From positions 402,245-466,244 of the forward strand of contig NZ_JABRPL010000003.1 of the NCBI RefSeq assembly GCF_013249015.1: a stretch of DNA of 64,000 nt. The letters are read 5' to 3'. Position numbers and translations under genes: made by a program. The notes beneath the pieces are model-generated. The model made no database searches and had not been told where the DNA came from. It was given only the letters and a program-made list of their open reading frames with translations. Of this stretch, positions 38,089-60,067 are shown piece after piece. The DNA comes from Rathayibacter agropyri (lineage in GTDB: Bacteria > Actinomycetota > Actinomycetes > Actinomycetales > Microbacteriaceae). The number at the start of each line of letters is the position of its first letter. Position 1 is the stretch's first letter.

Positions 38089-38674
38089 CGTCGTCCTTTC
38101 GTCGGCCGTACGACACTGCCACGGGTGCAGGGGGTCTGGCTACCTCGTTCCCGCGTCCGCATTCTCCTTCGCCGCATCAGGACGGATGGTTGCCTTCGGT
38201 TAGTTGTCGGGGGCTTTCTGGGTCGCGATGGACGTGTCGCCGGGCATCGAACGGGACGTCCTCCTCAATCGCACCTGAATCCGCCACGACACCCGCCCCT
38301 TCCCGACTCGGCGAGCCGAAACGTCCCACGTGAGTTCGCTCGGGAGCATAGAGAAGAACGGAAGTCACAAACGGCAATCCGCGACGCCTTTACACGCCAC
38401 CCCGAGCCCCCTTCGACGACGGCGACCGCCGAGCGTCGGAAAGTGACGCGCCCGGGCGGGAGGTACTCGACGGGACTCGGGGCGATGGGAGAGCGCTCTC
38501 ACGGCGACTCGATGTCTCAAACCGCACCCCCAGATGTCGCATAATCCCGCGGATCCCAGTGCTAGCGCGGGCGCAGCCGACCCCGGTGTTCGCTGCACAA
38601 GGGCCCCGATTACCTTCGAATCGGTTCAGAACTTTTGCTTGACCGGCGACGTAAGTAGAAGTAGCTTCGACCGC
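38089..38674. other. Gene-free divergent control region, 586 bases
   Basis: It separates the oxidoreductase from the sugar ABC operon. It holds the operator-like palindrome at 38489-38500, GAATCGGTTC at 38617-38626 and TTGACC at 38639-38644 followed after 17 bases by TAGCTT, a possible promoter for the ABC operon. No coding remnant was recognised. Confidence 0.45.
38489..38500. promoter_or_regulatory. LacI-type operator-like palindrome
   Basis: GAGAGCGCTCTC is a perfect 12-bp palindrome centred on CG and surrounded by GGGAGAGCGCTCTCACGG. LacI/GalR regulators of sugar genes in actinobacteria bind sites of the form TGGGAGCGCTCCCA. It lies 175 bases upstream of the ABC operon. No LacI gene is in this window. 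Confidence 0.45.
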
Positions 38675-41322: not shown

Positions 41323-41422
41323 CCCCGCTCCCCTCCACAGCACCCACCCGACCACCCAGGTCACCTCCCGCAGGACACCTGTGCCCTGCGGCACCACGCA
41401 TCGATCGAAGGAGATCACCCCC

Positions 41423-42499
41423 ATGCCCGCACGCCCCTTCTCCCGCAGCCGCCTCGGCCAGACCGCACGGCTCGGCTCGGCCGGACTCGCTTTCGGCGCC
41501 GTCGCCCTCCTGCTCACCGGCTGCATCTCGAACACTCCCGTCGCCTCGGGCAACGCCGGAGGGAGCGCCGCCGCCGTCGCCGCCTCCGACAACGATGCGT
41601 CGGGCGAGAAGGTCGTCATCGGCTTCACCGCCCCCGCGGCCGACCACGGCTGGATGGGCGCCGTGAGCCGTGCGGCCATCGCGGAGGCAGAGAAGTACGA
41701 CGATGTCGAACTGCGCACCGCCGAGGGCACCAACGACGTGAACCTGCAGATCAGTCAGGTCGAGACCTTCATCAACGACGGCGTGAACGCGATTGTGCTC
41801 CTCCCCATCGACGGGGCGGCGCTCACCCAGGTCGCCACGCAGGCGATGGAGGCGGGCATCACCGTCATCAACGTCGACCGCGAGTTCTCGAGCCCCTTCG
41901 CGGCTCGCTCGACGATCCTGGGCGACAACTACGGGATGGGCGTCAGCGCCGGCACCTACATCTGCGGCGAGCTGGGCGACACGCCCGGCGCCATCATCGC
42001 CGAGATCGCGGGCATCGACTCCCTCCCGCTGACCCAGGACCGCAGCCAGGGCTTCGCGGACGCGCTCAAGGGCTGTGGCCTGAGCGTGAGCAACCGTGTT
42101 GCCGCCGACTTCACCGTCCAGGGCGGCGAGCAGGCCGCGGCCAACCTCCTCCAGGCGGCGCCGAAGATCGACGCGATCTGGAACCACGACGACGACCAGG
42201 GCGTCGGTGTCCTCGCGGCGATCGACAGCGCGAACCGCAGCGAGTTCCTCTTCGTTGGCGGCGCCGGCTCGGCGAACGTGATGCGCTCGATCGAGGCCGA
42301 CGACAGCGTCGTCAAGGCCACGGTCGTCTACCCCTCTACGCAGGCTGCGGACGGCATCAAGCTCGCCCGCCTTGTCGAGCAGAACAAGTCGATGAGCGAC
42401 ACGACCTCGCTCGGAGTCCCGCGCCAGATCCAGCTCTTTGCCCCGGTCGTCACGAAGGACAACGTCGCCGAGTACCTGCCCTCGGCCTTCGAGTCCTGA
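41423..42499 (+). CDS. Sugar ABC transporter substrate-binding lipoprotein
   Basis: A 358-residue periplasmic-binding-protein-type lipoprotein (Peripla_BP_4). Lipobox LLLTGC (Cys34); mature motifs VIGFTAPAADHGWMGAVSRA, DGVNAIVLLPIDGAALTQVA, ITVINVDREF and IWNHDDDQGVGVLAAI. The start is ATG 41423 with GAAGGAG upstream. Position after ATPase and permease matches ribose/inositol-type importers; the exact ligand is unknown. Confidence 0.94.
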   Translation: MPARPFSRSRLGQTARLGSAGLAFGAVALLLTGCISNTPVASGNAGGSAAAVAASDNDASGEKVVIGFTAPAADHGWMGAVSRAAIAEAEKYDDVELRTAEGTNDVNLQISQVETFINDGVNAIVLLPIDGAALTQVATQAMEAGITVINVDREFSSPFAARSTILGDNYGMGVSAGTYICGELGDTPGAIIAEIAGIDSLPLTQDRSQGFADALKGCGLSVSNRVAADFTVQGGEQAAANLLQAAPKIDAIWNHDDDQGVGVLAAIDSANRSEFLFVGGAGSANVMRSIEADDSVVKATVVYPSTQAADGIKLARLVEQNKSMSDTTSLGVPRQIQLFAPVVTKDNVAEYLPSAFES

Positions 42500-42735: not shown

Positions 42736-45700
42736 ATGAATGATAAGCGACCCTCGAGAAGAAGCATCAGGCGACTTCTCGCTCTCGGCATCGCCGGGTT
42801 GGTGACGGTCTCCGGACTCACCGCCCTCGGCCTGCCCGCCTCGGCCCACGATGGAGTGGACCACGGCTCGGAGCCGGGCGCGGAGTCCGCGCTCGACTGG
42901 AGCAACTACGAGAAGGTGCTGCTGACGAAGAACGTCGGCGAACCCCTCGACCTCGCCGTCCTGCCCGATAAGTCGGTCCTCCACACGGCTCGAAACGGCG
43001 AGATTCGCCACACCGATCCGAAGACCGGCACCACGCGCGTCGTGGCCACCATCCCCGTTTACCAGAACTCCGAGGACGGGCTCCAGTCGGTGGGCATCGA
43101 CCCCGATTTCGCCGAGAACCAGTGGGTTTACGTCGTCTATGCGCCGCCCGGCACTACGCCGACCGGTGCGGCCCCTAACATGCTCCCCGAGGGCGCCGAC
43201 GACAGCTATTGGGACCAGTGGAAGGGCGCTAACCGCCTTTCGCGATTCAAGTGGACCGGATCGACGATCGACCTCTCGACCGAGCAGAAGATCATCGAGA
43301 TCGAGACCCAGCGCGGGCAGTGCTGCCACGTGGGTGCCGACTTCGACTGGGACGCCGACGGCAACCTGTACCTCTCGACCGGTGACAACACTCCGGCGAG
43401 CGCGCCAGGAGCCGCGGGCTTTGCGCCGAACAACGACGCGCCGCGGATGAACCCCGGCTTCGACTCGCGTCGCGGCGCCGGCAACACGAACGACCTCCGC
43501 GGCAAGATCCTCCGGATCGCTGTCCAGGAGGACGGGACCTACACGATTCCAGAGGGGAACCTGTTCCCCGAGGGCACCGAGAAGACCCGCCCGGAGATCT
43601 TCGTGATGGGCGTGCGTAACCCGTTCAAGATCGATGTCGATGCCGAGACGAACACCCTCTCGTGGGGTGACTACGGTCCCGATGCGACGAAGGCCGCTGC
43701 GGCCGACGGCGTGCGCGGCCCGATGGGTCTCGTGGAGTGGAATGCGACCGGTCTCGACCAGCCGCAGAACTCGGGCTGGCCCTACGTCCACGGACCGAAC
43801 GCGGCGTATAACGAGTGGAACTTCGAGACGGCGACGCCCCGCGGCTTCTTCGACCCGCAGAACCTGAAGAACAACTCGCGCTGGAACACCGGCCTTGTCG
43901 ACATCCCGGCGGCGACGTCGGCGACCGTCTACTACGGCGACAACCCGGGCGACCAACCGTTTGACGAGCTCGTGAACTTCGGTACCGGCACCGGTCAGGG
44001 CCCGATGGGCGGGCCGGTCTATCACTACGACGCGGAGAACACCTCGACGTCGAAGTTCCCGGAGTACTGGGACAAGAAGACGTTCTTCGGCGAGTTCTCG
44101 CAGGACTACATCGCGGCATTCACGCTCGATGAGGACCGCGCGGTCACGCACATCGAGGACTTCCTCCCCAATGCCGCGCTCAGCCAGGCTGCGCAGCCGA
44201 TCCACGACAACCCGATGGACATGGAGTTCGGCCCCGACGGGTCGATGTACGTGATCGAGTACGGCGACGGATTCTTCCGCGCCAACCCCGACGCGGGCCT
44301 GTACCGGATCGACTACGCCGAGGGAAACAAGGCCCCGCAGGCGCGTTTCACCGCGACTCCGCTCTCGGCGTCGCAGAGCCCTCTCGAGGTCACGTTCGAC
44401 GCGAAGGGCTCCTCCGACCCCGAGGGCGACGCGCTCACCTACGACTGGGACTTCGACGGCGACGGCACGTTCGACGCCACCGGAGTGACGGCGAAGAAGA
44501 CCTACACCGAGCTCGGACAGTTCACGGCCCGACTGCGCGTCACTGACGCCAAGGGCAAGTTCAGCCTGACCTCGCGGGTCATCTCGGTCGGCAACCAGGC
44601 GCCGCAGATTCAGATCCAGACTCCCGGCAACGGCTCGTTCTTCGAGTGGGGCGACGCGATCCCCTACACGGTGACCGGCACGGACGCGGAGGACGGCGAC
44701 CAGATCGTCAGCAGCCGCGTCAACTGGACCTACGGTCTGGGCCACGACGAGCACGCCCACCCCGAGGTCACCGGCACCGGTGCCCAGGGAGCGTTCCCCA
44801 CGTCGAAGGACTCGCCTGAGCACGGCCCCGGCGCCCTGCTCTACGGCACCGTCGTCGTGACCTACACGGACGCCGGCTTCAACGGACTGCCCCCGGCCAC
44901 GGCCGAGGCGACGCTGCGGCTGAACCCGAAGACGCAGGAGGCGGAGCACGCCGCCCGTGAGGGCGTCCTGCCCTACGCGGACACCACCGCCAGCGGCGGC
45001 AACGCGGTCAGCGGACTCGGTGCGGGATCCTTCCTGCGCTGGGACCCGGTGAACCTGGCCAACCTGACCGGCGTCGTGGTCCGCGCCACCGGTGAGGGCA
45101 CCGTGGATCTGCGCTGGAACGCCGCCGATGCGGCTCCCTTCGGAACCGCGACCATCCCCGCCGGAGCAGGCTGGAAGGACGTCCTCGTCCCCTTCGCCAA
45201 CGCTCCCCAGGGCACCGGGTCGCTCTACGTGACCTCGCCCAACGGACTGTCGCTCGACTCCCTCACCTTCCAGGGTGTCGGCGCCGGTGACAAGACGGCC
45301 CCGACCGTCACGGCGACGCTCGACCCCGCTGCTCCCACCGGAGTCGGCGGTGTCTACAACAAGCCCGTGACCCTCGGCCTCGCCGCCGCGGACAACGGTG
45401 CGATCTCGACCGTGCAGTACTCCGCCGACAACGGGACGACGTGGACCACCGTCCGCGCCACCAACGGTGCATACACGGTGCCGTTCACCACGAACGGGGC
45501 CCGGACGATCCAGTACCGCGCCACGGACACGGGCGGCACCGTGTCGACCGTCGGCACTGTGTCGTTCACGATCGACCTGGCCGCGGCGAACGCTCCGACC
45601 GTCGTGTCGACGACGACCGTCGCCCTCTCGGCTCCCCGCGTGACCTTCGGGGCACCGGGCGAGGCGACTGTCACCGTCACCGGTGAGGGTGGAACGCCGA

Positions 45701-46182
45701 GCGGAGAGGTCGTCCTCGTCGAGGGCGGCACCGAGCTCGGGCGCACGACGCTGAAGGACGGGAAGGCGACCTTCGCCCTGCCGCAGACCCTCGGCGCAGG
45801 CACGCACACCCTCCGAGTCGCCTACGGCGCGGACGGCACCTACAGGACCTCAGAGGGCACCGCCCGCCTGATCGTCTCGAAGGCCGCCTCGGTACTTACC
45901 GCGACCGTCTCGCCGAACCCGGTCAAGCCTGGCGCCAGCGCACAGGTCACGATCGGCGCCGAGACCGAAACCGGAGTGGCCGGAACGGGCCAGGTGAGCG
46001 TGATGGTGAAGCGGAACCTCTCCACCGTCGCGATGCTCACCGGGACCCTCGACGAGAACGGAAAGGTCGTCGTGACGCTGCCGAAGCTCGCGGCGGGGAG
46101 CTACAAGCTCACCGTCACCCACGCCGCCACCGCGAACACTACCGCCGCGTCCGCCCTGCTGAACCTCACTGTCCAGCAGTAG
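42736..46182 (+). CDS. Large secreted PQQ-type sugar dehydrogenase with PKD, CBM-like and Ig-like modules
   Basis: A 1148-residue exported protein. Signal peptide 1-38 (RRSIRRLLALGIAGL...LPASA). Residues about 55-535 are a glucose/sorbosone dehydrogenase-type beta-propeller: NGEIRHTDPKTGTTRVV, GLQSVGIDPDFAENQWVYV, RGQCCHVGADFDWDADGNLY, EIFVMGVRNPFKIDVD. A PKD domain follows (about 535-620), then a CBM6-like module (about 735-855), an OmpL47-like segment (about 870-950) and two Big_3-type Ig repeats to the C-terminus. It should oxidise or bind sugars outside the cell. There is no LPXTG or transmembrane anchor at the end, so it is probably released. Confidence 0.9.
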   Translation: MNDKRPSRRSIRRLLALGIAGLVTVSGLTALGLPASAHDGVDHGSEPGAESALDWSNYEKVLLTKNVGEPLDLAVLPDKSVLHTARNGEIRHTDPKTGTTRVVATIPVYQNSEDGLQSVGIDPDFAENQWVYVVYAPPGTTPTGAAPNMLPEGADDSYWDQWKGANRLSRFKWTGSTIDLSTEQKIIEIETQRGQCCHVGADFDWDADGNLYLSTGDNTPASAPGAAGFAPNNDAPRMNPGFDSRRGAGNTNDLRGKILRIAVQEDGTYTIPEGNLFPEGTEKTRPEIFVMGVRNPFKIDVDAETNTLSWGDYGPDATKAAAADGVRGPMGLVEWNATGLDQPQNSGWPYVHGPNAAYNEWNFETATPRGFFDPQNLKNNSRWNTGLVDIPAATSATVYYGDNPGDQPFDELVNFGTGTGQGPMGGPVYHYDAENTSTSKFPEYWDKKTFFGEFSQDYIAAFTLDEDRAVTHIEDFLPNAALSQAAQPIHDNPMDMEFGPDGSMYVIEYGDGFFRANPDAGLYRIDYAEGNKAPQARFTATPLSASQSPLEVTFDAKGSSDPEGDALTYDWDFDGDGTFDATGVTAKKTYTELGQFTARLRVTDAKGKFSLTSRVISVGNQAPQIQIQTPGNGSFFEWGDAIPYTVTGTDAEDGDQIVSSRVNWTYGLGHDEHAHPEVTGTGAQGAFPTSKDSPEHGPGALLYGTVVVTYTDAGFNGLPPATAEATLRLNPKTQEAEHAAREGVLPYADTTASGGNAVSGLGAGSFLRWDPVNLANLTGVVVRATGEGTVDLRWNAADAAPFGTATIPAGAGWKDVLVPFANAPQGTGSLYVTSPNGLSLDSLTFQGVGAGDKTAPTVTATLDPAAPTGVGGVYNKPVTLGLAAADNGAISTVQYSADNGTTWTTVRATNGAYTVPFTTNGARTIQYRATDTGGTVSTVGTVSFTIDLAAANAPTVVSTTTVALSAPRVTFGAPGEATVTVTGEGGTPSGEVVLVEGGTELGRTTLKDGKATFALPQTLGAGTHTLRVAYGADGTYRTSEGTARLIVSKAASVLTATVSPNPVKPGASAQVTIGAETETGVAGTGQVSVMVKRNLSTVAMLTGTLDENGKVVVTLPKLAAGSYKLTVTHAATANTTAASALLNLTVQQ

Positions 46183-46251: not shown

Positions 46252-47238
46252 ATGATGCACCACCACCACGCATCCATCACGGCCAAGCCGATGAGCCGGC
46301 GCTCGCTGATGACGGCCCTGGCCGCCTCGACGGTCGCTGTCGGAGCGGGAGCCTTCGCGGCACCCGCCGGGGCCGCCCCCGCGCCCTCGTCCGGCTCCAC
46401 GCGGCTGGTCCCGATCAACCGCATCGGCATCCAGCTGTACAGCGTCCGCGACAAGGTCGCCTCGATCGGCTTCCGCGCCGTCTTCGAGGAACTGGGCCGC
46501 ATCGGCTACAGCGAGATCGAGTTCGCCGGGTACACCCAGGGCCAGGTCGGCGCGATCACCCCGCAGGAGATCCGCACGCTGCTCGATGACAACGGCCTGC
46601 GCGCCGTCGGGTCGCACGTCGGCACCAACCTGCTCCGCTCGGAACTGGGCCGGCAGATCGAGATCGCGCAGATCCTCGGCACGCCGCACCTCGGCACGGG
46701 CAACGCGCCGACCAACGTCAACACCGTGGCCGGCTACCGCGCCGCGGCGGACGAGTGGAACGCCTGGGGCCAGCAGGTCTCGGCGGCGGGCATGAAGCTC
46801 TACCAGCACAACCACGCGGGAGAGTTCGCCTTCGGTTCGGACGACCCCAAGACCCGCCTCTACGACGTCTTCTACGACAACACCGACCCGCGCCACGTGT
46901 ACCTCGAGATGGACGTCTACTGGGCGTACGTCGGCAAGAAGCTCTACCCCGGCTTCGAGCCGCTCGACTACATCACGCGCAACCCGCGCCGCTACCCGAT
47001 CCTGCACCTCAAGGACGGCAAGACGAACAACGCCAACACCAACGGCTACGACATCGTCGAATTCGGTGCGGGCAACCTGCCCTACCAGGCGTTCCTCTCG
47101 GAGCTGCGCGACCGCGGCCAGCGCTTCGGCGTGTGGGAGCAGGACACCGCTCCCACCTTGGCGACGCCGCCGAGCACGGGGAACTCCCTCGAGGCCGCTT
47201 CCCGCAGCTACTCCGCGATCGCGGCACTCCGTGGCTGA
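46252..47238 (+). CDS. Tat-exported sugar-phosphate isomerase/epimerase-like TIM-barrel protein
   Basis: A 328-residue xylose-isomerase-like TIM barrel. N-terminal Tat signal (MSRRSLMTALAASTV, hydrophobic stretch, GAAPAP). Barrel motifs: NRIGIQLYSVRD, YSEIEFAGYTQ, KLYQHNHAGEFAF (metal His/Glu), VYLEMDVYWAYVG (Glu, Asp) and YPILHLKDGKT (His, Asp), so the metal site looks complete. The N-terminal MMHHHH run is natural and upstream of the twin arginines. Export of this fold is a feature of sugar-oxidation loci; it lies just after the secreted sugar dehydrogenase. Confidence 0.92.
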   Translation: MMHHHHASITAKPMSRRSLMTALAASTVAVGAGAFAAPAGAAPAPSSGSTRLVPINRIGIQLYSVRDKVASIGFRAVFEELGRIGYSEIEFAGYTQGQVGAITPQEIRTLLDDNGLRAVGSHVGTNLLRSELGRQIEIAQILGTPHLGTGNAPTNVNTVAGYRAAADEWNAWGQQVSAAGMKLYQHNHAGEFAFGSDDPKTRLYDVFYDNTDPRHVYLEMDVYWAYVGKKLYPGFEPLDYITRNPRRYPILHLKDGKTNNANTNGYDIVEFGAGNLPYQAFLSELRDRGQRFGVWEQDTAPTLATPPSTGNSLEAASRSYSAIAALRG

Positions 47239-49897: not shown

Positions 49898-51091
49898 TCA
49901 GCGCTCGGCGCGCCGCTGGGCACGCAGACGCTCGAGGAAGGCGTCGACCGTGCCGGGGGCGAGCAAGTGACCGCGGAGCATCAGTGCGGCGCCTCGCACG
50001 CCTCCGCTGCCGCCCAGCTCGGCGGTGACCACATCGAGACGCTGCGTCGCCAGGGGAAGGGAGCGCTCGTCGATCACCGCGCGAACGGCCGAGACGATCT
50101 CGGGGCTGGCGAGGGCGACCGCTCCGCCGAGCACGATGACGGACGGATTCAGCAGGCTCACGCAGGTCGCCAGCACCTCGCCGAGCTGGAGCCCCGCGAT
50201 CCGCGCCGCCTCGACGGCCTCGGGGTCGCGCGCCCTGAGCAGGTCGATCAGTTCGCGCACGGAGTGCACGTCCCGTCCTGCCCGGGCGAGGCCCGCGGCC
50301 AGAGCGGAGCCGCCCGCGACGGCCTCGAGGTCGCCCTCCTGGCCGCCGGCGGCGAGGGGCGCGGTGCGCGGGACCTGCACGTGGCCGAGATCACCGGCCG
50401 CGCCCAGGGCGCCGCGCTGGAGCAGCCCGCTCGAGACGATGCCCGCTCCGATGCCGGTGCCGACCTTCACGAACATCAGATCGAGCGCGTGCGGGAACCG
50501 CGAGGCGCGCTCGCCCAGGGTCAGCAGGTTCACGTCGTTGTCGACGAGCACCGCGGTGTCGTAGCGGCGACGGACGGACGCGGGGATGTCGAAGCCGTCC
50601 CAGCCGGGCATGATCGGCGGTCGGATCGGTCGACCGCTGGCATGCTCGACCGGACCGGGCACGCCGACTCCGATGCCCGCGATCGCCGACGGAGCGACGC
50701 CGGCCGCCGCGAGAAGGTCGCCGCACACATCGAGAGCGTGCTCGAGCACCGGCACGGGCCCCTGAGCGATGTCGAGTTCCTCGCGCCGCTCCGCGATGAT
50801 GCGGCCGTCGAAGTCGGTCAGCGCGATCGTGGAGTGGGTCGCTCCCAGGTCGATGGCCAGGAGAGAGCGCACGGCCGGATCGAAGACCAGCCGCGCCGAG
50901 GGCCGGCCGCCAGTCGAGGGCGCACGGTCGAGGTGCGCGATCAGGCCCAGTTCGAAGAACAACTCCAGCCGCGTCATGACCGCGGTGCGGGCGAGCCCGG
51001 TCTCCTCGACCAGCTCCGCTCGGGTGCGCGGACGCCCGTCGGCGAACAACCGAAGCATGTCGCCTGTCGCGGTCCCCGCTCGCTCGGTCAC
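49898..51091 (-). CDS. ROK-family transcriptional regulator
   Basis: A 397-residue ROK repressor with an N-terminal winged helix (about 5-65; LVEETGLARTAVMTRLELFF) and a sugar-kinase-fold domain (AIDLGATHSTIALTD, GVGVPGPVEH, VLVDNDVNLL, VKVGTGIGAGIVSSGLL). The catalytic Asp of kinases is present in DNDVN. The conserved Cys-rich zinc site that normally follows GHxxV is missing (PRTAPLAAGGQEGDLEAVAG instead). The GTG at 51091 has AAGGAG upstream. It is divergent from the ebo-like operon and is its most likely regulator, sensing a sugar or sugar phosphate. Confidence 0.9.
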   Translation of the reverse strand: MTERAGTATGDMLRLFADGRPRTRAELVEETGLARTAVMTRLELFFELGLIAHLDRAPSTGGRPSARLVFDPAVRSLLAIDLGATHSTIALTDFDGRIIAERREELDIAQGPVPVLEHALDVCGDLLAAAGVAPSAIAGIGVGVPGPVEHASGRPIRPPIMPGWDGFDIPASVRRRYDTAVLVDNDVNLLTLGERASRFPHALDLMFVKVGTGIGAGIVSSGLLQRGALGAAGDLGHVQVPRTAPLAAGGQEGDLEAVAGGSALAAGLARAGRDVHSVRELIDLLRARDPEAVEAARIAGLQLGEVLATCVSLLNPSVIVLGGAVALASPEIVSAVRAVIDERSLPLATQRLDVVTAELGGSGGVRGAALMLRGHLLAPGTVDAFLERLRAQRRAER

Positions 51092-51321
51092 GCTCAGCTC
51101 CTTCTCTCGGCCACGTGGTCGGTGTCGTCGGGGGGCACCTCCGAGGAAAGCAGTCGCTGTGCGCCGATGCAATTGTGGCGCGCGGCAGGAGCGGGACGCG
51201 CGCGCTGCGATCCTGAGCAGACGGGTCGAGCCGCCGCCGCCCGCCGATGCGCCGCGGCTTCCCCTTCTCATTCGACCGCGCGCCGGAGTCCGTTCCTCGT
51301 CGCGGCCGTCACCGACCGTCC

Positions 51322-51363
51322 AGCACATCTAGATAGCACATCCAGCCCGACAGCACGTTCAGA
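51322..51363. promoter_or_regulatory. Three direct repeats upstream of the ebo-like operon
   Basis: AGCACATCTAGA at 51322, AGCACATCCAGC at 51335 and AGCACGTTCAGA at 51352 form a spaced direct repeat ending just before the AGGAGAG ribosome-binding site of the inositol-phosphate-synthase-like gene. They may be regulator sites, or a leader RNA feature since they lie very close to the start. Confidence 0.4.
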
Positions 51364-51375
51364 CAGGAGAGAACG

Positions 51376-52605
51376 ATGACCTCGTCCGACACCACCACCG
51401 CGCGGCGAGGCACGCGCATCGGCCTCTGGCTGATCGGAGCGCGGGGCAGCGTCGCCACCACCGCCACCGTCGGCCTGCACGCGATCGCCGCGGGCGCCGC
51501 GCCCAGTTCGGGCTGCGCCACCGCGACCCCCGCCTTCGAGGATGTCCCGCTCGCCGGCTTCGCCGACATCGTCATCGGCGGCCACGACCCGTCGTCCACG
51601 GGGCTGCTCGAGCGGGCGATGGGACTGGCCGCCGGTGGCATGTTCTCGACCTCGGTTGTCGCCGAGGTGACCGAGCGGATCGACGCGACCGACGCCGAGC
51701 TCCGTCCCCTCGCCTCCGACGCCGCGTCGCAGCAGGAGGAAATCGACCGCCGGGCCGCCGACATCGTCTCGTTCCGCGAGCGCCACGGCCTCGCCCGCGT
51801 CGTCGTGATCGACGTCGCCTCGACCGAGGTCCTCCCCGCCGACCGCCCCGAGTTCCACGACCTCGCCGCCCTGCGTGCCGCGCTCGCCCGTCCAGGGGAG
51901 CGGATCCTCCCGCCGAGTTCGATCGCCGCGCTCTCGGCGGTCGTCGCGGGTGCCCCCTACGCCTGCTTCACTCCGTCGACCGCGCTGGCCCTGCCCGCGC
52001 TCAAGGAGTGGGCCGCCGAGGCGGGCATCCCGATCGCGGGACAGGACGGTAAGACTGGCGAGACCCTCCTGCGCAGCGTGCTCGCGCCGATGTTCACCGC
52101 CCGCGGCCTGCGCGTGCTCTCGTGGGCGGGCGCCAACCTGCTGGGCGGCGGGGACGGGCAGACCCTTGCCGACCCGGAGGCGGTGTGCTCGAAGCTCGTC
52201 TCGAAGAACCGCGGATTGCGCAGTCTCCTCGGCGATGACGTCGTCACTCCGCTGCACATCGACAATGTGCCGGACCTCGGCGACGTGAAGACGGCGTGGG
52301 ACCACGTGCACGCTGAGGGCTTCTTGGGCTCGCGGATCACGGTACAGACGATCTGGTCGGCGTACGACTCGGCGCTCGCCGCTCCGCTGATCCTCGACCT
52401 CGCGCGCCTGCTCGCGCTCGCTGACGAGGCGGGCGTCTCGGGGCCGGTGGGCGAGCTCGGCTTCTTCTTCAAGGACCCGTGGGGGAGCGACGTGCACAGC
52501 TTCGCGGAGCAGACCGCCGAGCTCGTGGCGTGGGCCGCCCGCACCGGGGCACTCGTTGTCGAGCACCGAACACCCATGACGTCCGGGAAACGCCGCGATG
52601 GCTGA
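51376..52605 (+). CDS. Inositol-3-phosphate synthase-like protein (takes the EboD position)
   Basis: A 409-residue protein of the myo-inositol-1(3)-phosphate synthase family, which forms a cyclitol phosphate from glucose 6-phosphate using NAD. N-terminal Rossmann GLWLIGARGSVATT (residues 17-29) and the catalytic-core motif GQDGKTGET at 222-230 are present, with VKTAWDHVHAEGFLGSRITV in the C-terminal domain. It lacks the length of eukaryotic synthases and differs from the housekeeping actinobacterial Ino1. First gene of a six-gene overlapping operon; in canonical ebo clusters the matching function (EboD) is a 3-dehydroquinate-synthase-like sugar-phosphate cyclase. Confidence 0.9.
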   Translation: MTSSDTTTARRGTRIGLWLIGARGSVATTATVGLHAIAAGAAPSSGCATATPAFEDVPLAGFADIVIGGHDPSSTGLLERAMGLAAGGMFSTSVVAEVTERIDATDAELRPLASDAASQQEEIDRRAADIVSFRERHGLARVVVIDVASTEVLPADRPEFHDLAALRAALARPGERILPPSSIAALSAVVAGAPYACFTPSTALALPALKEWAAEAGIPIAGQDGKTGETLLRSVLAPMFTARGLRVLSWAGANLLGGGDGQTLADPEAVCSKLVSKNRGLRSLLGDDVVTPLHIDNVPDLGDVKTAWDHVHAEGFLGSRITVQTIWSAYDSALAAPLILDLARLLALADEAGVSGPVGELGFFFKDPWGSDVHSFAEQTAELVAWAARTGALVVEHRTPMTSGKRRDG

Positions 52606-53473
52606 GCTGCGCGATTACCTCGAGTTGGTCCGGGCGCGGGCGGCGCTGACGGTGATCGGCGACACGATCGCGGGCGGAGCGTGGGCAGGCCGCCGGATCG
52701 GGGCGCGGACCGTCGCGCTGCCGCTGGCGTCCGTGCTCCTCTACTCCGCGGGTATGGCGCTGAATGATTACGCGGATGCCGCACTCGATGCCGAGGAACG
52801 GCCGGAGCGGCCGATCCCCTCCGGGCGCATCAGCCGCGCGGCGGCGCTGGGCACCGCGGCGGGTCTGACCGTCGCCGGAGTGGCGGTCGCGGCCCTCGTC
52901 GAGGGTCGCCGCTCGCTCGCCCTCGCGCTGCCCCTCGCCGCCGGCATCTGGTCGTACGACCTGCTCGCGAAGCCGACTCCGCTCGGCCCGGTGGTGATGG
53001 CGGTCTGCCGCGGGCTCGACGTGCTGCTTGGCGCGGGAGTGTCGGGCCTCGGTGCCGCGGCACCCGCCTCCGTCGCCCTTGCGGCGCACACGCTGGGAGT
53101 CACGGTGCTCTCGCGCGGCGAGGTGCACGGCACGACGGCCGTGACCGCGGGGGCCGCCGCCGGCGGCACCGCGACGATCGCGCTCGCCACTGCGGCGGGC
53201 GTCCTCGCCCAGCGGAGGGCCGTCCCGGCCGCCGTGGTCGCCGCGGGTCTGGGGCGCTGGCTGCTCCTGGTGCTGCGGGCCCAGCTTCAGGCCGCGCGGA
53301 CACGGACGGCCGCGGCTGCGCGCACCGCCACCCGCGCAGGCATCACGGGGATGATCGCGCTCCAGGCGTCCCTCGCGGGGCTGCGGCGACCCGGGCTCGG
53401 CGCGGCGCTGCTCGCGCTCGACGCGCTCGGCTCCCTCCTGCTTCGCCGCCCGCGGACGGCGGACATCACATGA
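52598..53473 (+). CDS. eboC: UbiA-type prenyltransferase, EboC-like
   Basis: A 291-residue membrane protein with about seven to eight hydrophobic segments. The UbiA first Asp-rich motif appears as ALNDYADAALDAEERPERPI; the second is shifted (IWSYDLLAKPTPLGPVVMAV). It matches EboC, the prenyltransferase of ebo clusters, and would attach an isoprenoid to a small, probably cyclitol-like, acceptor at the membrane. It overlaps its upstream neighbour by 8 bases and the downstream gene by 4. Confidence 0.88.
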   Translation: MAELRDYLELVRARAALTVIGDTIAGGAWAGRRIGARTVALPLASVLLYSAGMALNDYADAALDAEERPERPIPSGRISRAAALGTAAGLTVAGVAVAALVEGRRSLALALPLAAGIWSYDLLAKPTPLGPVVMAVCRGLDVLLGAGVSGLGAAAPASVALAAHTLGVTVLSRGEVHGTTAVTAGAAAGGTATIALATAAGVLAQRRAVPAAVVAAGLGRWLLLVLRAQLQAARTRTAAAARTATRAGITGMIALQASLAGLRRPGLGAALLALDALGSLLLRRPRTADIT

Positions 53474-54987
53474 CCGGCCCCGTGCTCGGCTACGGTACGA
53501 GCGGCTTCGCCGACCACACTCTCGAGGACGCGCTGACCGTGATCCACGCCGCCGGCTACCGCGCCGTTGCGCTCACCCTCGGGCACCCGCACCTTGATCC
53601 GTTCGCCGTCGACTGCCGCGAGCAGGCCCTCGCGCTGCGGTCCCGGCTGGAGGCGCTGGGCCTGCGCGTCGTGATCGAGACCGGCGCCCGCTATCTGCTT
53701 GATCCCTTCGTCAAACACCGGCCCACGCTGGTCGATGAGGAGGCGGAGCCGCGGCTGCGGTTCCTGGAGCGCGCCATCGAGATCGCCGCGCTGCTGGGCG
53801 CCGACGCGGTCTCGCTCTGGTCGGGAGTCGTGCCCGTGGGCGGCGACCGGGCCGCAGCCTGGCGTCTCCTGATCGAGCGGATGCGCGGCATTGTCACCGC
53901 GGCCGAGCGCCACGGCGTGCGGCTGGCGTTCGAGCCCGAGCCCGGGATGCTGGTCGAGACGGTCGCCGATGCGCTGGTGCTGCGGCGCGAACTCGGCGAC
54001 CCGGACGTCCTCGGGCTGACGGTCGACCTCGGGCACTGCGTCGTGGTCGAGCCGGACGGCGTGGTCGGTGCTCTGCGGAGCGCCGCCGGGCTGCTCCTGA
54101 ACGTGCAGGTTGACGACATGCTCCCCGAGCGGCACGAGCACCTCGAACTCGGCACCGGCTCCCTCGACCTCGCGGCGGCGTTCGCGACGCTCGCCGAGAT
54201 CGGCTACGAGGGGATCGCGGCCGTCGAGCTGCCCCGGCATTCGCACGACGCGCCACGTCTGGCCGTCGCGAGCCTCGCTGCGATGCAGGAGGCGCGCAGC
54301 GGCGCGTCCGCGCGCATCGAGCACCCGTGGACCGCGACCGCCCGAGCCGCCATCCGGGAGCGGCCGTCGCGGATCGAGCGCTTCTTCCCCGCCGCAGGGC
54401 GCGAGGCCGGGCGGGAGCCGCTGCGGCCGGACGTCGATCCGCAGGGCCTCGTGCACGCCAGTCAGGACGACGCGGCCCGCGCCGCTCTGGTCGAGGCGGC
54501 CGCGCAGGTGCTCGCTGACGAGGAGTTGGCGGCTTTGCTCCTCCGCCTCTACCGCGGCGGAGACGGCGCCGAGCGGCGCGGCGTGCTGGCCGGCCTGAAT
54601 GCGCTGGCCGGCCTGAACGTGCTGCCCGACCCGGGGCCCGCGACAACCGCCGTCGGCCTCGAACTCACGGCCGACGCCCTGCGCGCGAACGACACCCGCC
54701 TCGTCGCCACGGCGATGGGCTCCTTCGCCCGCCGCCACCTCAATGCGCACTCCTGGCGCCACGGCGTGCTCAAGCTCGTGTTCCTCGGTATCCCGCTCGC
54801 GGCGGTCGCCGGGCTCCAGGAGCGCAGCGACGCCGAGTTGCGCGCGATGGCCGGCCGCTTCGCCGACGAGCGTCGTGCGGCCGGGCGTCCCCTCCCCGAT
54901 GATCTGGCGGTGCTCCTACCGAGCTGGTCGTCTCCCACTCGCCCCCGATCCCTGGGCCTTCCACCACCGATGAGAAAGGCGCGATGA
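53470..54987 (+). CDS. Fusion of TIM-barrel isomerase and EboA domain
   Basis: A 505-residue two-domain protein. Residues about 1-275 are an AP-endonuclease-2/xylose-isomerase-like TIM barrel: GYRAVALTLGHPHLDPF, LAFEPEPGMLVET (metal Glu), LTVDLGHCVVVEP (Asp/His) and LNVQVDDMLPERHEHLELG. Residues about 310-490 match EboA: a helical domain with RRGVLAGLNALAGLNVL, LTADALRANDTRLVATAMG and HSWRHGVLKLVFLGIPLAAV. EboA is normally a separate protein of about 200 residues. ATGA overlaps join it to the EboC-like and TatD-like genes on both sides. Confidence 0.88.
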   Translation: MTGPVLGYGTSGFADHTLEDALTVIHAAGYRAVALTLGHPHLDPFAVDCREQALALRSRLEALGLRVVIETGARYLLDPFVKHRPTLVDEEAEPRLRFLERAIEIAALLGADAVSLWSGVVPVGGDRAAAWRLLIERMRGIVTAAERHGVRLAFEPEPGMLVETVADALVLRRELGDPDVLGLTVDLGHCVVVEPDGVVGALRSAAGLLLNVQVDDMLPERHEHLELGTGSLDLAAAFATLAEIGYEGIAAVELPRHSHDAPRLAVASLAAMQEARSGASARIEHPWTATARAAIRERPSRIERFFPAAGREAGREPLRPDVDPQGLVHASQDDAARAALVEAAAQVLADEELAALLLRLYRGGDGAERRGVLAGLNALAGLNVLPDPGPATTAVGLELTADALRANDTRLVATAMGSFARRHLNAHSWRHGVLKLVFLGIPLAAVAGLQERSDAELRAMAGRFADERRAAGRPLPDDLAVLLPSWSSPTRPRSLGLPPPMRKAR

Positions 54988-55874
54988 TGCGTATCTTCGA
55001 CCCGCACATCCACATGACCTCCCGCACCACAGACGACTACCAGGCACTGTTCGACGCCGGCGTCCGGGCGGTGGTCGAACCCTCGTTCTGGCTCGGCCAG
55101 CCGCGGACGAACGTCGGCTCCTTCACCGACTACTTCGACGCCCTGATCGGCTGGGAGCGTTTCCGCGCCGCGCAGTTCGGGATCCGCCACCACTGCACCA
55201 TCGGACTGAACCCGAAAGAGGCGAACGACGCGCGCTGCCGTGAGGTGCTGCCCGAGCTCGACCGTTACCTCGCCAAGGACGGCGTCGTCGCGGTCGGCGA
55301 GACCGGCTACGACTCGCTCACCCCGGAGGAGGACCAGGTCTTCCGCCAGCAGCTTGAGCTCGCCGGCGAGCACGGGCTCCCCGCGATGGTGCACACTCCG
55401 CACCGCGACAAGGAGTCGGGAACGCGCCGCACCCTCGAGGTGGTCGCCGACTCTGGCCTCGCGTCCGAACAGGTGCTTGTCGACCACCTCAACGAGGTCA
55501 CGGTCGATGCCGTCCGGGACTCCGGTTGCTGGATGGGTTTCTCGATCTACCCCGACACCAAGATGGACGAGACCCGCCTGGTGACGCTGGTCGAGCGGAT
55601 CGGCCTGGACCGCGTGCTGGTCAACTCCGCCGCCGACTGGGGCCGTTCGGATCCGCTCACGACCGCGAAGACCGGTCGCCTCCTCCTCGTGGCCGGCTTC
55701 AGCGCGGCCGACGTGGACCGGCTGCTCTGGCAGAACCCGGTCGAGTTCTACGGGCAGAGCGGACGCCTGGACCTCTCGCCCGTCGCGGGCTTCGACGCGC
55801 AGGAGTCGGCTGGCCGCACTTTCGAGGGCAACTCGGTGCTCCGGGGCGCGCCGCGGGTGGCGGAGGTCGTCTGA
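54984..55874 (+). CDS. eboB: TatD-family metal-dependent hydrolase, EboB-like
   Basis: A 296-residue amidohydrolase-fold protein. Metal ligands are visible in FDPHIHMTSRTTDD (HxH near the N-terminus), VGETGYDSLTPEE (Glu), MVHTPHRDKESG (His), LVDHLNEVTVD (His) and VNSAADWGRSDP (Asp). It corresponds to EboB. The ATG at 54984 shares ATGA with the fusion gene stop. The likely reaction is hydrolysis of a phosphate, amide or lactone in the pathway intermediate, but the substrate is unknown. Confidence 0.9.
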   Translation: MMRIFDPHIHMTSRTTDDYQALFDAGVRAVVEPSFWLGQPRTNVGSFTDYFDALIGWERFRAAQFGIRHHCTIGLNPKEANDARCREVLPELDRYLAKDGVVAVGETGYDSLTPEEDQVFRQQLELAGEHGLPAMVHTPHRDKESGTRRTLEVVADSGLASEQVLVDHLNEVTVDAVRDSGCWMGFSIYPDTKMDETRLVTLVERIGLDRVLVNSAADWGRSDPLTTAKTGRLLLVAGFSAADVDRLLWQNPVEFYGQSGRLDLSPVAGFDAQESAGRTFEGNSVLRGAPRVAEVV

Positions 55875-57025
55875 TGCACCTCTCTTATTGCACCAACGTG
55901 CACCCCGCCGAAGACCTGGCCGGAGTCGTCCGCCAGCTCGACGTCTACGCCGGGCCTGCGCGCGTCGCGGCGGGTCTCGACCTGGTCGGCGTGGGCCTGT
56001 GGATCCCGCGGGACCTCGCCGCCCAGCTCGTCGCCAGCGCCGAGGACCGCGCCGTGCTGCGCGCCGCCCTCCAGCGCAACGGCCTCGAGGTGCGCACGCT
56101 GAACGCGTTCCCCTACGCGGCCTTCCACGCCGAGGTCGTCAAGCTCGACGTCTACCGGCCCGACTGGACCACTCCCGAGCGTCTGCAGTACACGATCGAC
56201 TGCGCGCGGATCCTCGCCGATCTGTTGCCCGCGGGCGCCGACGGCAGCATCTCGACCCTCCCGCTCGGCTGGCGCGAGGGCTGGGGAGCCGCGGACGATG
56301 CGGCGGCAACCCGGCAGCTCGCCTCGCTCGTGGAGGAGTTGCGGGACCTGCGCCGCTCGACCGGCCACGCCATCCGCCTGGCGATCGAGCCCGAGCCCGG
56401 CTGCATCCTCGACACCGTCGATGACGTCGTCGACTGGCTGCACCCGCGGATCGGCGTGGTCGACCCCGCGTACGTCGGCGTCTGCCTGGACACCTGCCAC
56501 CTCGCCGTCTCCTTCGCCGACCCGGCCTCGGCCGTCCGTCGCATTCGTGACGCGGGGCTGCGCGTGGTGAAGGTGCAGGCCTCGGCCGCGCTGCACCTCA
56601 AGGACCCGGCGGGGCGCGCGGCACTCACTCCCTTCGTCGAGAAGCGCTACCTGCACCAGACCCGCGAGAACGGAGTCGACGGCGTGCTCCGCGTGGACGA
56701 CCTGCCCGAGGCGCTCGAGACTCTCCCCGGCACGGGACCCTGGCGCGTGCACTTCCACGTGCCGCTGCACCACCGGCCCGAGCCACCGCTCTCGGCCACG
56801 ACGGCAGTGCTCGCGGAGGCGGTCTCGGCGGTCGACGCGTCCTGGCCGTACGACGAGATCCACCTCGACGTCGAGACGTACACCTGGTCGGTGCTCGCAG
56901 AGGCGCCGAGCGACCTTTCCACGGGCATCGGCGCCGAACTCGCCTGGGCGGCCGAGCACTTGCTCACCCCCGCAGCGCGCACGGCGCTACTGGCGCCCCT
57001 CCTCTCGCCGGCGGTGGCCCGGTGA
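55874..57025 (+). CDS. eboE: Xylose-isomerase-like TIM-barrel protein, EboE-like
   Basis: A 383-residue protein starting MHLSYCTNVHPAEDLAGVVR, the hallmark of EboE-type proteins. Barrel motifs: LWIPRDLAAQLV, LNAFPYAAFHAEVVKLDVYR, IRLAIEPEPGCILDTVDDVV (metal Glu), GVCLDTCHLAVSF (Asp/His), FHVPLHHRPEPPLSAT and HLDVETYTW (Glu). The start shares one base with the previous stop (TGATG). Predicted to isomerise or epimerise a sugar-derived intermediate. Confidence 0.92.
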   Translation: MHLSYCTNVHPAEDLAGVVRQLDVYAGPARVAAGLDLVGVGLWIPRDLAAQLVASAEDRAVLRAALQRNGLEVRTLNAFPYAAFHAEVVKLDVYRPDWTTPERLQYTIDCARILADLLPAGADGSISTLPLGWREGWGAADDAAATRQLASLVEELRDLRRSTGHAIRLAIEPEPGCILDTVDDVVDWLHPRIGVVDPAYVGVCLDTCHLAVSFADPASAVRRIRDAGLRVVKVQASAALHLKDPAGRAALTPFVEKRYLHQTRENGVDGVLRVDDLPEALETLPGTGPWRVHFHVPLHHRPEPPLSATTAVLAEAVSAVDASWPYDEIHLDVETYTWSVLAEAPSDLSTGIGAELAWAAEHLLTPAARTALLAPLLSPAVAR

Positions 57026-58443
57026 GGCCCGTGCTGCTGCTCGACGTGGTCGGGCTGACCTCGACGGCGCTCGCCGATATGCCCCGTCTCTCGCGGCTCG
57101 CCCGGAGCGGCGGGCGGCTGCCGCTCGACACAATCCTGCCCGCGGTCACGTGCAGCGTGCAGTCCACCATGCTCACCGGGACGATGCCCGCGCAGCACGG
57201 GATCGTCGGCAATGGCTGGTACTTCCGCGACCTCGGCGAGGTGCACCTCTGGCGCCAGCACAACCGTCTCGTCAGCGGCGAGAAGGTGTGGGAGACCGCG
57301 CGGCGCCTCAGCTCTGAGCCGTACCGCGCGGCGAACATCGGCTGGTGGTACGCGATGGGAGCGACGACCGACGTCACCGTTACTCCGCGCCCGATCTACC
57401 ATGCCGATGGCCGCAAGTCGCCGGACGCCTACATCCGCCCGCCGGCGCTGCACGATGAGCTGGTCTCCCGTTTCGGAGCGTTCCCGCTGTTCCACTACTG
57501 GGGGCCGACTGCGTCGCTCCGCTCGACACAGTGGATGGTCGACGCGACCCGGCATGTGCTGGCCGGCGACGGTGCCGGCCCGCCCGAGCTGACGACCGCC
57601 TACCTCCCGCACCTCGACTACGACCTCCAGCGCTTCGGGCCGGAGTCGCCCGAGGCGCGGCGGGCCGCCTCGGAACTCGACGTGGTGCTCGCTCCGCTGC
57701 TGGATGACGCCCAGGCGCTGGGCGCGTCGGTGATCGTGGTCGCCGAGTACGGGATCGCCGACGCGGATACTCCCGTCGACGTGAATCGGACCCTCCGGTT
57801 CGAGGGCCTGCTCGAGGTGTACGTGCAGGAGGGACGAGAGCACCTGGATCCGTGGACATCGCGAGCATTCGCGGTCGCCGACCACCAGGTTGCCCACGTC
57901 TATGTGCAGGACGCGGCCGACCTGCCGCGGGTGCGCTCGCTCCTGGAGGCGCTGGACGGCGTCGATGAGGTGCTCGACCGGGAGCAGCAGGCGCGCTACG
58001 GCCTCGACCACGAGCGCTCGGGGGAGTTCGTCGTCGTCGCCCGGCCGGGAGCGTGGTTCACCTACTACTACTGGCTTGACGACTCCCGCGCGCCCGACTT
58101 CGCCCGCGGAGTCGACATTCACCGCAAGCCCGGCTACGACCCGGCCGAGCTCTTCTTCGACCCGGCCGACCCGCTGGTGAAGGCGAAAGCGGCGGGAAAT
58201 CTCGCCAAGAAGGCGCTCGGGCTGCGGTATGCGATGAATCTGGTGCCGCTGGACGCGTCGCTGGTGCGGGGCACCCACGGAAGGCTGCCGGTCTCGGCTG
58301 CCGACACTCCGCTCGTGCTCGCCTCCGACCCGGACCTGCTGCCGGTCGGCGCCGCGTCCCTCCCGGCGACGGCTGTGCGCGACCTGGTCCTCGCCGCGCA
58401 CGGGCCGGCCCTCGCGCGCCGAGCGGAGACGCTCACGCGCTGA
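57022..58443 (+). CDS. eboF: Alkaline-phosphatase-superfamily phosphodiesterase/pyrophosphatase, EboF-like
   Basis: A 473-residue protein of the nucleotide pyrophosphatase/phosphodiesterase type. VLLLDVVGLT holds the first metal Asp, LPAVTCSVQSTMLTGTMPAQ the nucleophile Thr and the HG motif follows (QHGIVGNGWYFRD); YLPHLDYDLQRFGP gives Asp/His ligands, and VVAEYGI sits where the usual D-H-G is found. No signal peptide, so it acts in the cytoplasm. GTGA overlap with the EboE-like gene. It is the last gene of the operon and is followed by a hairpin terminator. Confidence 0.9.
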   Translation: MRPVLLLDVVGLTSTALADMPRLSRLARSGGRLPLDTILPAVTCSVQSTMLTGTMPAQHGIVGNGWYFRDLGEVHLWRQHNRLVSGEKVWETARRLSSEPYRAANIGWWYAMGATTDVTVTPRPIYHADGRKSPDAYIRPPALHDELVSRFGAFPLFHYWGPTASLRSTQWMVDATRHVLAGDGAGPPELTTAYLPHLDYDLQRFGPESPEARRAASELDVVLAPLLDDAQALGASVIVVAEYGIADADTPVDVNRTLRFEGLLEVYVQEGREHLDPWTSRAFAVADHQVAHVYVQDAADLPRVRSLLEALDGVDEVLDREQQARYGLDHERSGEFVVVARPGAWFTYYYWLDDSRAPDFARGVDIHRKPGYDPAELFFDPADPLVKAKAAGNLAKKALGLRYAMNLVPLDASLVRGTHGRLPVSAADTPLVLASDPDLLPVGAASLPATAVRDLVLAAHGPALARRAETLTR

Positions 58444-60007: not shown

Positions 60008-60067
60008 GTGGGTAGCGAAAAATGCCGCAGACCCATTTAGTGAGCTTCGACGTAAAGGAAGACAAGT

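Follow-up and report, generated by a model that had tools for sequence, protein, structure and literature searches.

Gene clusters of the ebo/edb type occur in many phyla as well as in algal plastids, and Klicki reportedly described a cluster of EboA-F in 2018. To our knowledge, no Ebo product has been established. The EboA-F cluster is also treated in the excerpted text of Yurchenko et al. 2016 (PMC5133447). In the excerpted text of a second paper, SCO3243 is named as a myo-inositol phosphate synthase and SCO3242-SCO3243 are listed among the genes of the calcium-dependent antibiotic cluster (PMC3610822). A search of the open-access literature, which leaves out preprints altogether and the bulk of subscription papers, gave no report of MIPS in ebo clusters or of a link between SCO3242 and ebo genes. 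Here we describe an ebo-type operon in the window (the whole 64,000-nucleotide stretch of Rathayibacter agropyri DNA that was analysed) in which a MIPS-like cyclase takes the place of EboD.

The window contains a six-gene ebo-type operon

Six open reading frames form a single plus-strand operon at positions 51376-58443, with successive overlaps of 8, 4, 4, 1 and 4 bases:

51376..52605, plus strand, MIPS-like cyclase of the inositol-3-phosphate synthase family, in the EboD slot (PF07994 150 bits, PF01658 100 bits)
52598..53473, plus strand, UbiA-superfamily prenyltransferase of the SCO3242 family, EboC-like (curated profile NF045897, 297 bits, cut-off 260)
53470..54987, plus strand, fusion of a xylose-isomerase-like TIM barrel (residues ~1-280) and an EboA domain (residues ~333-481) (PF01261, NF035938)
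54984..55874, plus strand, TatD-type metal hydrolase, EboB-like (PF01026 62 bits)
55874..57025, plus strand, EboE TIM-barrel protein (NF035939 417 bits, cut-off 250)
57022..58443, plus strand, EboF, alkaline-phosphatase/NPP-fold protein with an altered metal site (PF01663 208 bits)

The first-pass annotation had proposed an overlapping six-gene operon of this type, and both the coordinates of the reading frames and the profile matches bear it out. The GQDGKTGET motif was confirmed in the MIPS-like translation, and the ATG overlapping the EboB stop was chosen as the start of EboE. Our own profiles score EboB of the window at 492 bits and EboF at 752 bits, values raised by construction because the window is itself among the seeds; the same applies to the scores of the other seed loci, L001-L004 and L087-L091, and for MIPS also L093. 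Of the 114 loci examined, 77 hold the seven parts in the order seen in the window (a count that includes genes on either strand and two-piece matches), so the arrangement is not due to chance.

MIPS and EboD are mutually exclusive

MIPS profiles match the first gene and the operon lacks EboD, which upholds the claim that a MIPS sits in the EboD slot. Among 102 loci with any ebo gene, MIPS is present in 91, EboD in 6, neither in 5 and both in none, showing that the two cyclases are mutually exclusive in a comparison that includes only 6 EboD-type loci. The 47 plasmid records examined comprise 29 with MIPS, 15 with EboD and 3 with neither. When the neighbouring cyclase was counted across 396 evenly drawn Actinomycetota genomes, EboE was found in 18, of which 17 carry an operon-type MIPS together with an SCO3242-type prenyltransferase and one carries EboD; among the Actinomycetota sampled, the MIPS type is thus the usual ebo variant.

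The exchange is larger than the cyclase-for-cyclase swap originally envisaged. MIPS does occupy the EboD slot, and it brings with it an extra TIM barrel. This barrel is present at 87 of the 91 MIPS loci and absent from all 6 EboD loci, so that EboD seems to have been traded for a MIPS and TIM barrel pair. A canonical EboD elsewhere in the genome was sought in Rathayibacter iranicus, the nearest relative (MIPS 95% identical), where the EboD profile gave one match, at 144 bits, the level of an ordinary AroB; the single true EboD in the same search scored 563 bits. This search covered 39 genomes (377 of the 396 sample genomes lie outside it) and its one EboD-level match, in G383, lies beside EboE in an operon without MIPS or the TIM barrel. 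A profile search of loci L007-L086 likewise found no EboD.

Individual loci depart from the common layout in various ways. Four MIPS loci have no TIM barrel, three of them ending with their contigs (L009, L062, L078) and one truly without it (L036). Among the 80 nearest MIPS loci, nine have no ebo gene at all, L038 has the TIM barrel and EboA only, and in L018 the contig breaks off early in EboC, the sole ebo part visible there. The stretch at L117 contains ebo genes and the TIM barrel but no MIPS, and a further locus in that genome (L119) is complete; L134 seems degenerate, and Halomarina L092 has MIPS and no other ebo match. In three plasmid records EboE is accompanied by neither MIPS nor EboD: two (L192, L193) carry EboB-EboE-EboF and an EboA remnant, and in the third (L191) EboE is the only ebo gene and lies within a type II polyketide cluster. 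A Gloeothece plasmid record has EboD and no EboE match, and in the EboD locus L090 an annotated sugar phosphate isomerase, not matched by the TIM profile, adjoins the cluster.

The TIM barrel and EboA are frequently but not always fused

In the fusion protein the TIM barrel (PF01261) spans residues 24-273. The EboA domain that had been claimed to follow it, at residues 310-490, is matched by NF035938 at residues 333-481 (131 bits, cut-off 50), while the full-length EboA family NF035937 was not reached (36 bits, cut-off 320). The AlphaFold model of the fusion has a mean pLDDT of 89, and Foldseek returned no match to the EboA fold at E 0.001 or better, which is not proof of a new fold. The TIM domain matches ketose 3-epimerases, though none of the curated sugar isomerase/epimerase equivalogs was reached (the highest score was 61 bits against a cut-off of 353, for TIGR03234, hydroxypyruvate isomerase). 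The fusion had been noted before, in Actinobacteria, by Yurchenko et al. (2016, PMC5133447), whose excerpted text refers to it as "data not shown".

The suggestion that EboA works physically with a sugar isomerase survives in part: contact is possible, but the partnership is not obligate, since the two are fused in 33 of 84 loci and each occurs alone. EboA is present in 3 of 6 EboD loci, which are without such a TIM barrel, and the TIM barrel occurs without EboA in the MIPS-type clusters of Gemmatirosa (Gemmatimonadota) and of three haloarchaeal plasmids, although the haloarchaeal TIM barrels score only 117-147 bits and may be non-orthologous. On the MIPS tree the fusion state changes at least six times, with five changes forced by well-supported branches. 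The frequency of fusion also led us to reject it as an essential feature of the system.

The prenyltransferase, EboB and EboF

The expected match of the EboC profile to the UbiA-like protein exists, at 149 bits, but falls below the cut-off of 250 for the EboC equivalog NF035940; the SCO3242 family is the one reached instead. The NDxxDxxxD motif is present in 93 of 93 EboC-like sequences, and the closest solved relative of EboC is digeranylgeranylglyceryl phosphate synthase 6m31 (82 bits, with the match confined to positions 2-148 of the 284 in the profile). Like EboC a member of the UbiA superfamily, 6m31, which we take to transfer a prenyl group in ether linkage to a polyol phosphate, serves as the model proposed for the EboC reaction.

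Residues H8, H10, E106, H137 and H168 of EboB are invariant in 95 of 95 sequences. Compared with what are presumably the two-metal ligands of the NPP family, EboF keeps the Thr, one Asp and one His, and the remaining positions are altered: Asp to Val in 88 of 89 sequences (one gap), His to Gln in 87 of 89 (Leu in 2) and Asp-His to Glu-Tyr in 89 of 89. These residue counts (EboF 89, EboC 93, TIM 86, EboB 95) cover the matches that passed thresholds of length and score, and no haloarchaeal sequence is in the TIM set. EboF thus does not have the NPP-type phosphodiesterase ligand set, most of which has been lost in the MIPS-type and EboD-type clusters alike. This makes the proposed processing by a phosphodiesterase doubtful, and the altered metal site is a warning against that label.

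A prenyl-cyclitol lipid as the proposed product

The mutual exclusion of MIPS and EboD (91 against 6 of 102 loci, both in 0) strengthens the earlier suggestion of a cyclitol as the starting point of the pathway. We give an even chance to the proposal that the MIPS-type ebo variant makes a prenylated inositol-derived (prenyl-cyclitol) lipid, the chemistry of which we infer throughout. MIPS would convert glucose 6-phosphate to inositol 1-phosphate, or to its inosose intermediate, and the TIM barrel, likely a metal-dependent isomerase, would act on the keto form of that cyclitol. The resulting polyhydroxylated ring would take the part of the C7 cyclitol that has been proposed for EboD, and the membrane UbiA enzyme would attach a prenyl chain to this ring, probably in ether linkage by analogy with the solved enzyme closest to it. 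Finishing or handling the product would fall to EboB, EboE and EboF, with EboA acting as a helical-repeat scaffold attachable to the isomerase. The prenyl-cyclitol lipid would be used at the membrane, plausibly as a carrier-like molecule of the kind proposed for scytonemin-monomer export.

A broader and more tentative suggestion is a prenyl-cyclitol lipid pathway common to bacteria and haloarchaea, in which the ring may come either from sedoheptulose 7-phosphate via EboD or from glucose 6-phosphate via MIPS and a keto-cyclitol isomerase. Its minimal core would be the cyclase, UbiA, TatD and EboF-like proteins, with EboA and EboE optional, and in actinobacteria it might be tied to a 3-keto-sugar import locus that perhaps supplies or salvages the ring. 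If MIPS truly fills the EboD slot, the actinobacterial ring would be inositol-derived and traceable by labelled glucose or inositol in Streptomyces, making a long-open question testable. The MIPS swap is in this sense a concrete handle on the product of the ebo/edb pathway, and the archaeal form helps to pick out the core genes.

The operon often adjoins a sugar-import locus

The following associated genes lie upstream of the operon in the window:

36916..38088, minus strand, Gfo/Idh/MocA oxidoreductase, levoglucosan-dehydrogenase-like, sugar locus (PF01408; NF052479 387 bits, below cut-off 650)
38534..42499, plus strand, sugar ABC importer of ribose/arabinose type (ATPase, permease, substrate-binding protein; inner starts uncertain), sugar locus
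42736..46182, plus strand, large protein with glucose/sorbosone-dehydrogenase (GSDH), PKD, CBM6-like and Ig-like domains, sugar locus (PF07995 103 bits)
46252..47238, plus strand, TIM-barrel protein with an N-terminal signal-like stretch, sugar locus (PF01261 44 bits)
49898..51328, minus strand, divergent ROK-family protein, candidate regulator, associated but not core (PF00480)

Two or more of eight sugar-locus markers lie next to 9 of the 16 MIPS-ebo loci sampled (a sample drawn by EboE alone), compared with 0 of 12 housekeeping-Ino1 control regions. The same level is reached at 38 of 56 long related loci, a figure that leans upward because the markers were picked after viewing the window, L003, L040 and L057 and the 56 are kin of the window, and at 0 of 6 EboD-type loci. 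Homologues of the large GSDH protein (at least 200 bits) and of the ROK protein (at least 150 bits) are found in 31 and 18 of these 56 loci, respectively, and 5 of 7 genomes viewed over 40 kb have sugar-locus markers. The EboD-type locus of Azospirillum (L087) has one marker gene. That the operon often adjoins a sugar-import/3-keto-sugar locus is a new observation, and in the open-access literature we found nothing on 3-keto sugar/ThuA/Gfo.

These counts would also fit an operon that is itself part of a 3-keto-sugar catabolic locus, where a sugar or cyclitol is taken in and processed by the importer, Gfo/Idh, GSDH, ThuA and TIM proteins and serves as the substrate of the MIPS-ebo proteins, with no export lipid being made, as might the Lentzea and Nocardioides loci that combine MIPS with such sugar-locus genes and have no ebo genes. 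We consider this somewhat unlikely, however, since fewer than two markers occur at 7 of the 16 loci sampled, at 18 of the 56 long ones and in 4 of 4 haloarchaeal records, and since there is no evident part for a UbiA prenyltransferase to play in catabolism.

The operon MIPS is distinct from housekeeping Ino1

Both MIPS Pfam domains and the catalytic Lys/Asp/Asn set are present in the operon MIPS, and 8 of 9 catalytic positions compared with Archaeoglobus fulgidus Ino1 are identical in 103 of 103 sequences, while D259 of that enzyme is replaced by Gly or Asn in all 103 (a set without L121, L122 and L125, where MIPS matches in two pieces, and without the duplicate loci L147-L164). With a 5-sequence MIPS profile, the best solved relative is A. 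fulgidus Ino1 (1u1i) at 406 bits, and 6k96, a five-membered cyclitol phosphate synthase, scores 88 bits. The capacity of MIPS relatives such as 6k96 to make other cyclitols counts against the prenyl-cyclitol proposal, as do the altered D259, the degraded metal site of EboF, the low scores of the haloarchaeal TIM barrels, the isomerase annotated beside L090, the in vitro activity of an EboC relative on quinoline acids and the genomes in which the operon MIPS is the sole one (both described below).

The family precedent of 6k96 raises the alternative that the product of the MIPS-like enzyme is some other cyclitol phosphate, which might arise by release of the inosose phosphate or from another sugar phosphate. 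The near-constant company of the TIM barrel would suit this, as would the distance from mycothiol-type housekeeping Ino1 (TIGR03450 39 bits, cut-off 638, not reached). We nevertheless hold it to be unlikely, given that the compared catalytic residues other than D259 are those of A. fulgidus Ino1 and that the profile lies much closer to this enzyme than to 6k96.

The comparison of the operon MIPS with housekeeping Ino1 in a tree placed them in separate, distant clades, showing that the operon MIPS descends separately; the tree is a quick build in which the joining of Gemmatirosa MIPS and A. fulgidus may reflect long-branch attraction. A PF01658 search of 16 genomes, which included one with an ebo-type MIPS and no ebo genes (G412) and one of EboD type with housekeeping Ino1 only (G383), found a second, housekeeping Ino1 in 10 of the 14 genomes with an operon MIPS. 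The tree and these 10 genomes led us to reject the identity of the operon MIPS with housekeeping Ino1. In the other 4 (G001, which is R. iranicus, G002, G270 and G399) it is the sole MIPS, and it may therefore also serve general inositol supply.

These four genomes would be accommodated if MIPS were co-localised merely for supply, making ordinary cell inositol (phosphatidylinositol, mycothiol) while the ebo proteins use something else. This is distinctly unlikely in view of the distant housekeeping Ino1 in the 10 genomes, the exclusion of EboD, and the joint occurrence of EboE, the SCO3242 prenyltransferase and the operon MIPS in the same 17 genomes. We know of no standard route by which MIPS leads to aromatics, and the solved structure nearest to EboC is that of an ether-lipid enzyme. 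It is thus very unlikely that the ebo proteins prenylate an aromatic metabolite for which the cyclitol enzyme supplies a remote precursor, even though the excerpted text of PMC9235831 reports in vitro farnesylation of quinoline acids by the EboC relative Ubi-297, which argues for aromatic acceptors, and although one EboE (L191) lies in a polyketide cluster and an annotated aromatic prenyltransferase adjoins one Streptomyces operon (L004).

Comparison with known systems

SCO3242 of Streptomyces coelicolor is the namesake of the prenyltransferase family of gene 2; the SCO3242-SCO3243 pair, compared here by its published description only, is given no ebo link in the excerpted text of PMC3610822. 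The neighbourhood resembles the levoglucosan/3-keto-sugar pathway in having a Gfo/Idh oxidoreductase, TIM-barrel enzymes and a sugar ABC importer beside the operon, but the Gfo/Idh protein scores 387 bits where the cut-off for levoglucosan dehydrogenase is 650. A. fulgidus Ino1 is the closest solved MIPS, with the same catalytic residues apart from D259. With the ebo/edb cluster the operon shares an EboE equivalog, an EboA domain, a TatD-type EboB, an EboC-like UbiA protein and EboF; it differs in having MIPS and an extra TIM barrel for EboD, an SCO3242-family prenyltransferase under the EboC cut-off, and EboA fused to the TIM barrel.

An ebo-type operon with an inositol phosphate synthase

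The first-pass annotation had described a six-gene ebo-type operon in the window, and curated profiles together with Pfam confirm that observation. The operon and two genes downstream of it are as follows:

51376-58443, + strand: six overlapping genes for an inositol-3-phosphate synthase family protein (MIPS), a UbiA prenyltransferase, a xylose-isomerase-like TIM barrel (TIM) fused to EboA, a TatD hydrolase, EboE and EboF (from profiles)
59048-59422: WXG100 protein
61091-62950: LXG-domain protein

EboE scores 417 bits against its curated profile (cut-off 250) and the EboA domain, residues 333-481 of the fusion, 131 bits (cut-off 50), while the MIPS, TatD, UbiA, TIM and NPP-like folds are all supported by Pfam. 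The prenyltransferase passes the cut-off of the NCBI SCO3242 family (297 bits vs 260) and falls below that of the NCBI EboC family (149 bits vs 250). Among the matches listed, the closest MIPS is that of Rathayibacter iranicus (95% identity), which makes Rathayibacter the probable genus of the window. The WXG100 and LXG genes are probably a separate secretion-related module; G+C is lower downstream of the operon (0.59 in window 60001-64000).

MIPS and a TIM barrel as an apparent replacement for EboD

MIPS and EboD never occur together in the 102 loci that have one or more ebo genes: 91 carry MIPS, 6 carry EboD and 5 carry neither. TIM accompanies MIPS in 87 of those 91 loci and appears in none of the 6 EboD loci; 3 of the 4 MIPS loci lacking it stop at a contig end; in the EboD locus of Ketogulonicigenium (L090), our TIM profile does not match the adjoining annotated sugar phosphate isomerase. 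The operon-type TIM family (232-305 bits) also lies alongside MIPS where a YcaO protein belongs to the cluster. From these patterns we read the swap as one gene (EboD) for two (MIPS and TIM). These YcaO-linked clusters, in Hymenobacter (L005, 6025-12558), Roseomonas (L006, 6007-13158) and Methylobacterium (L094, 8007-14821), are apparently another, uncharacterised MIPS-based pathway; Gfo/Idh proteins are annotated in the first two.

Distribution of the two forms

A MIPS-alignment scan of bacterial and archaeal genomes gave at least 525 confirmed relatives, and in the best 80 of these (L007-L086, all Actinomycetota by title) our own profiles found no EboD. The order MIPS-EboC-TIM-EboA-EboB-EboE-EboF, accepting either strand and matches split in two, occurs in 77 of 114 loci (the window, L001-L094 and L116-L134).

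An evenly drawn set of 396 Actinomycetota genomes is less biased than these nearest relatives. EboE exceeds its cut-off in 18 of them, at 19 places, and the SCO3242-family prenyltransferase in 17, which also score highest for MIPS: 15 of them reach at least 437 bits, and genomes G163 and G248 stop at 330-331 because their matches are split into pieces. The top MIPS score in a genome without EboE is 365 bits, and 78 genomes show some MIPS match at 1e-60. The eighteenth EboE genome, G383, has EboD at 563 bits (at most 210 in the other 38 genomes searched), in an operon without MIPS or TIM. Over 19 EboE regions, leaving out R. iranicus and including the broken G281 locus, the neighbour is MIPS in 16, EboD in 1 and neither in 2.

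The sole EboD-type operon met in this sample (L120, 6439-12113) runs D-B-E-C-F, like the Deinococcus locus L088, and has no EboA match. Locus L134 (5681-10628) looks degenerate: its EboE and EboC matches are fragmented, and neither MIPS nor TIM is matched in 18 kb. In Streptomyces sp. NBC_01244 (L191, 8971-10149), EboE lies within a type II polyketide cluster, with no further ebo match in 19 kb. In Streptomyces camelliae (L004), the MIPS-ebo operon is immediately preceded by a gene annotated as ScyD/ScyE family (7698-8900), which brings to mind the scytonemin link of cyanobacterial ebo; it matches no Pfam family and has a homologue in one other locus only (L047, 78 bits).

EboE is found on 48 plasmid records. 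In a tally of 47, omitting one fragment and judging closeness from coordinates, MIPS is close by in 29, EboD in 15 and neither in 3; we take the MIPS-type records to be Actinomycetota and one Gemmatimonadota, and the EboD-type to be Deinococcota, Pseudomonadota and Bacteroidota. The Gemmatirosa locus has MIPS, TIM, EboC, EboF, EboB and EboE, with no EboA match. On plasmid stretches of about 17 kb from Halobaculum, Natronococcus and Halocatena, MIPS and EboF adjoin EboB, EboC and a pair of TIM barrels, and neither EboE nor EboA is matched there; the whole Halobaculum plasmid gives two weak EboE matches (19-20 bits). The Natronococcus and Halocatena non-MIPS proteins, which lie outside the profile seeds, score 401-420 bits for EboB, 210-218 for EboC and 458-490 for EboF, and just 117-147 for the TIMs. 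A fourth haloarchaeal record, Halomarina, has MIPS alone.

Properties of the MIPS protein

By profile, the closest solved structure is A. fulgidus Ino1 (406 bits). D225, K227, N255, K274, K278, K306, D332 and K367 are identical in all 103 MIPS sequences, a set that spans ebo loci, haloarchaeal and YcaO-linked loci and lone MIPS loci, and the position of A. fulgidus D259 is Gly or Asn in every one. In the tree, twelve housekeeping Ino1 proteins of sampled genomes group separately as a clade (SH-aLRT 100). Ten of 14 genomes searched that carry the operon MIPS have an additional housekeeping Ino1, and four, R. iranicus included, have no other MIPS. In Micromonospora (L033, 9707-16650), an ebo-type MIPS occurs without ebo genes and looks as though it had been drawn into a different biosynthetic cluster: its neighbours are a PLP decarboxylase, an acyl-CoA dehydrogenase, an AMP-binding enzyme and a carrier-protein domain.

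A neighbouring sugar locus

The region upstream of the window operon encodes a ROK protein and an ABC importer of the ribose/arabinose type, along with a Gfo/Idh protein resembling levoglucosan dehydrogenase, a protein resembling glucose/sorbosone dehydrogenase and a further TIM barrel. At least 2 of 8 markers of this locus, picked after viewing the window and three other loci, occur in 9 of 16 MIPS-ebo loci sampled by EboE alone and in 38 of 56 long near loci, vs none of 12 housekeeping-Ino1 regions (9/16 vs 0/12, p 0.0017 in a one-sided Fisher test), none of 6 EboD-type loci and none of 4 haloarchaeal records. Among seven hand-picked genomes viewed over 40 kb, five have such markers. In Natronococcus and Halocatena, annotated analogues take their place (a BMP-type ABC importer and TIM), and a PQQ sugar dehydrogenase is annotated in the Natronococcus stretch.

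MIPS loci of Lentzea and Nocardioides (L040, 6371-17901; L057, 1899-11134) have a similar sugar locus, with MIPS amid Gfo/Idh, TIM, ThuA and GSDH and no ebo genes; L040 adds a 3-keto-disaccharide hydrolase. In the levoglucosan route (PMC7676230), LgdB1 and LgdB2, annotated sugar phosphate isomerases, work after sugar 3-oxidation, so that a 3-keto-sugar or keto-cyclitol role is plausible here. The sugar-locus link, absent from the first-pass annotation, may be the better route to the substrate.

Proposed pathway and relation to known ebo systems

The data establish gene anatomy and residue conservation, and all of the reactions are inferred. On the best reading, MIPS would yield an inositol phosphate, the TIM enzyme would isomerise a keto-cyclitol, EboC would attach a prenyl chain, and the remaining Ebo proteins would finish or move the product.

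The TIM-EboA fusion and the SCO3242 prenyltransferase family were already known. The open-access papers searched gave no report of the exchange of cyclases or how it is distributed, nor of the archaeal form, the altered EboF site or the sugar-locus link. Because EboD is missing and the prenyltransferase falls short of the EboC cut-off, the window operon is not a canonical ebo cluster; it is a distinct, MIPS-type variant of the ebo system.
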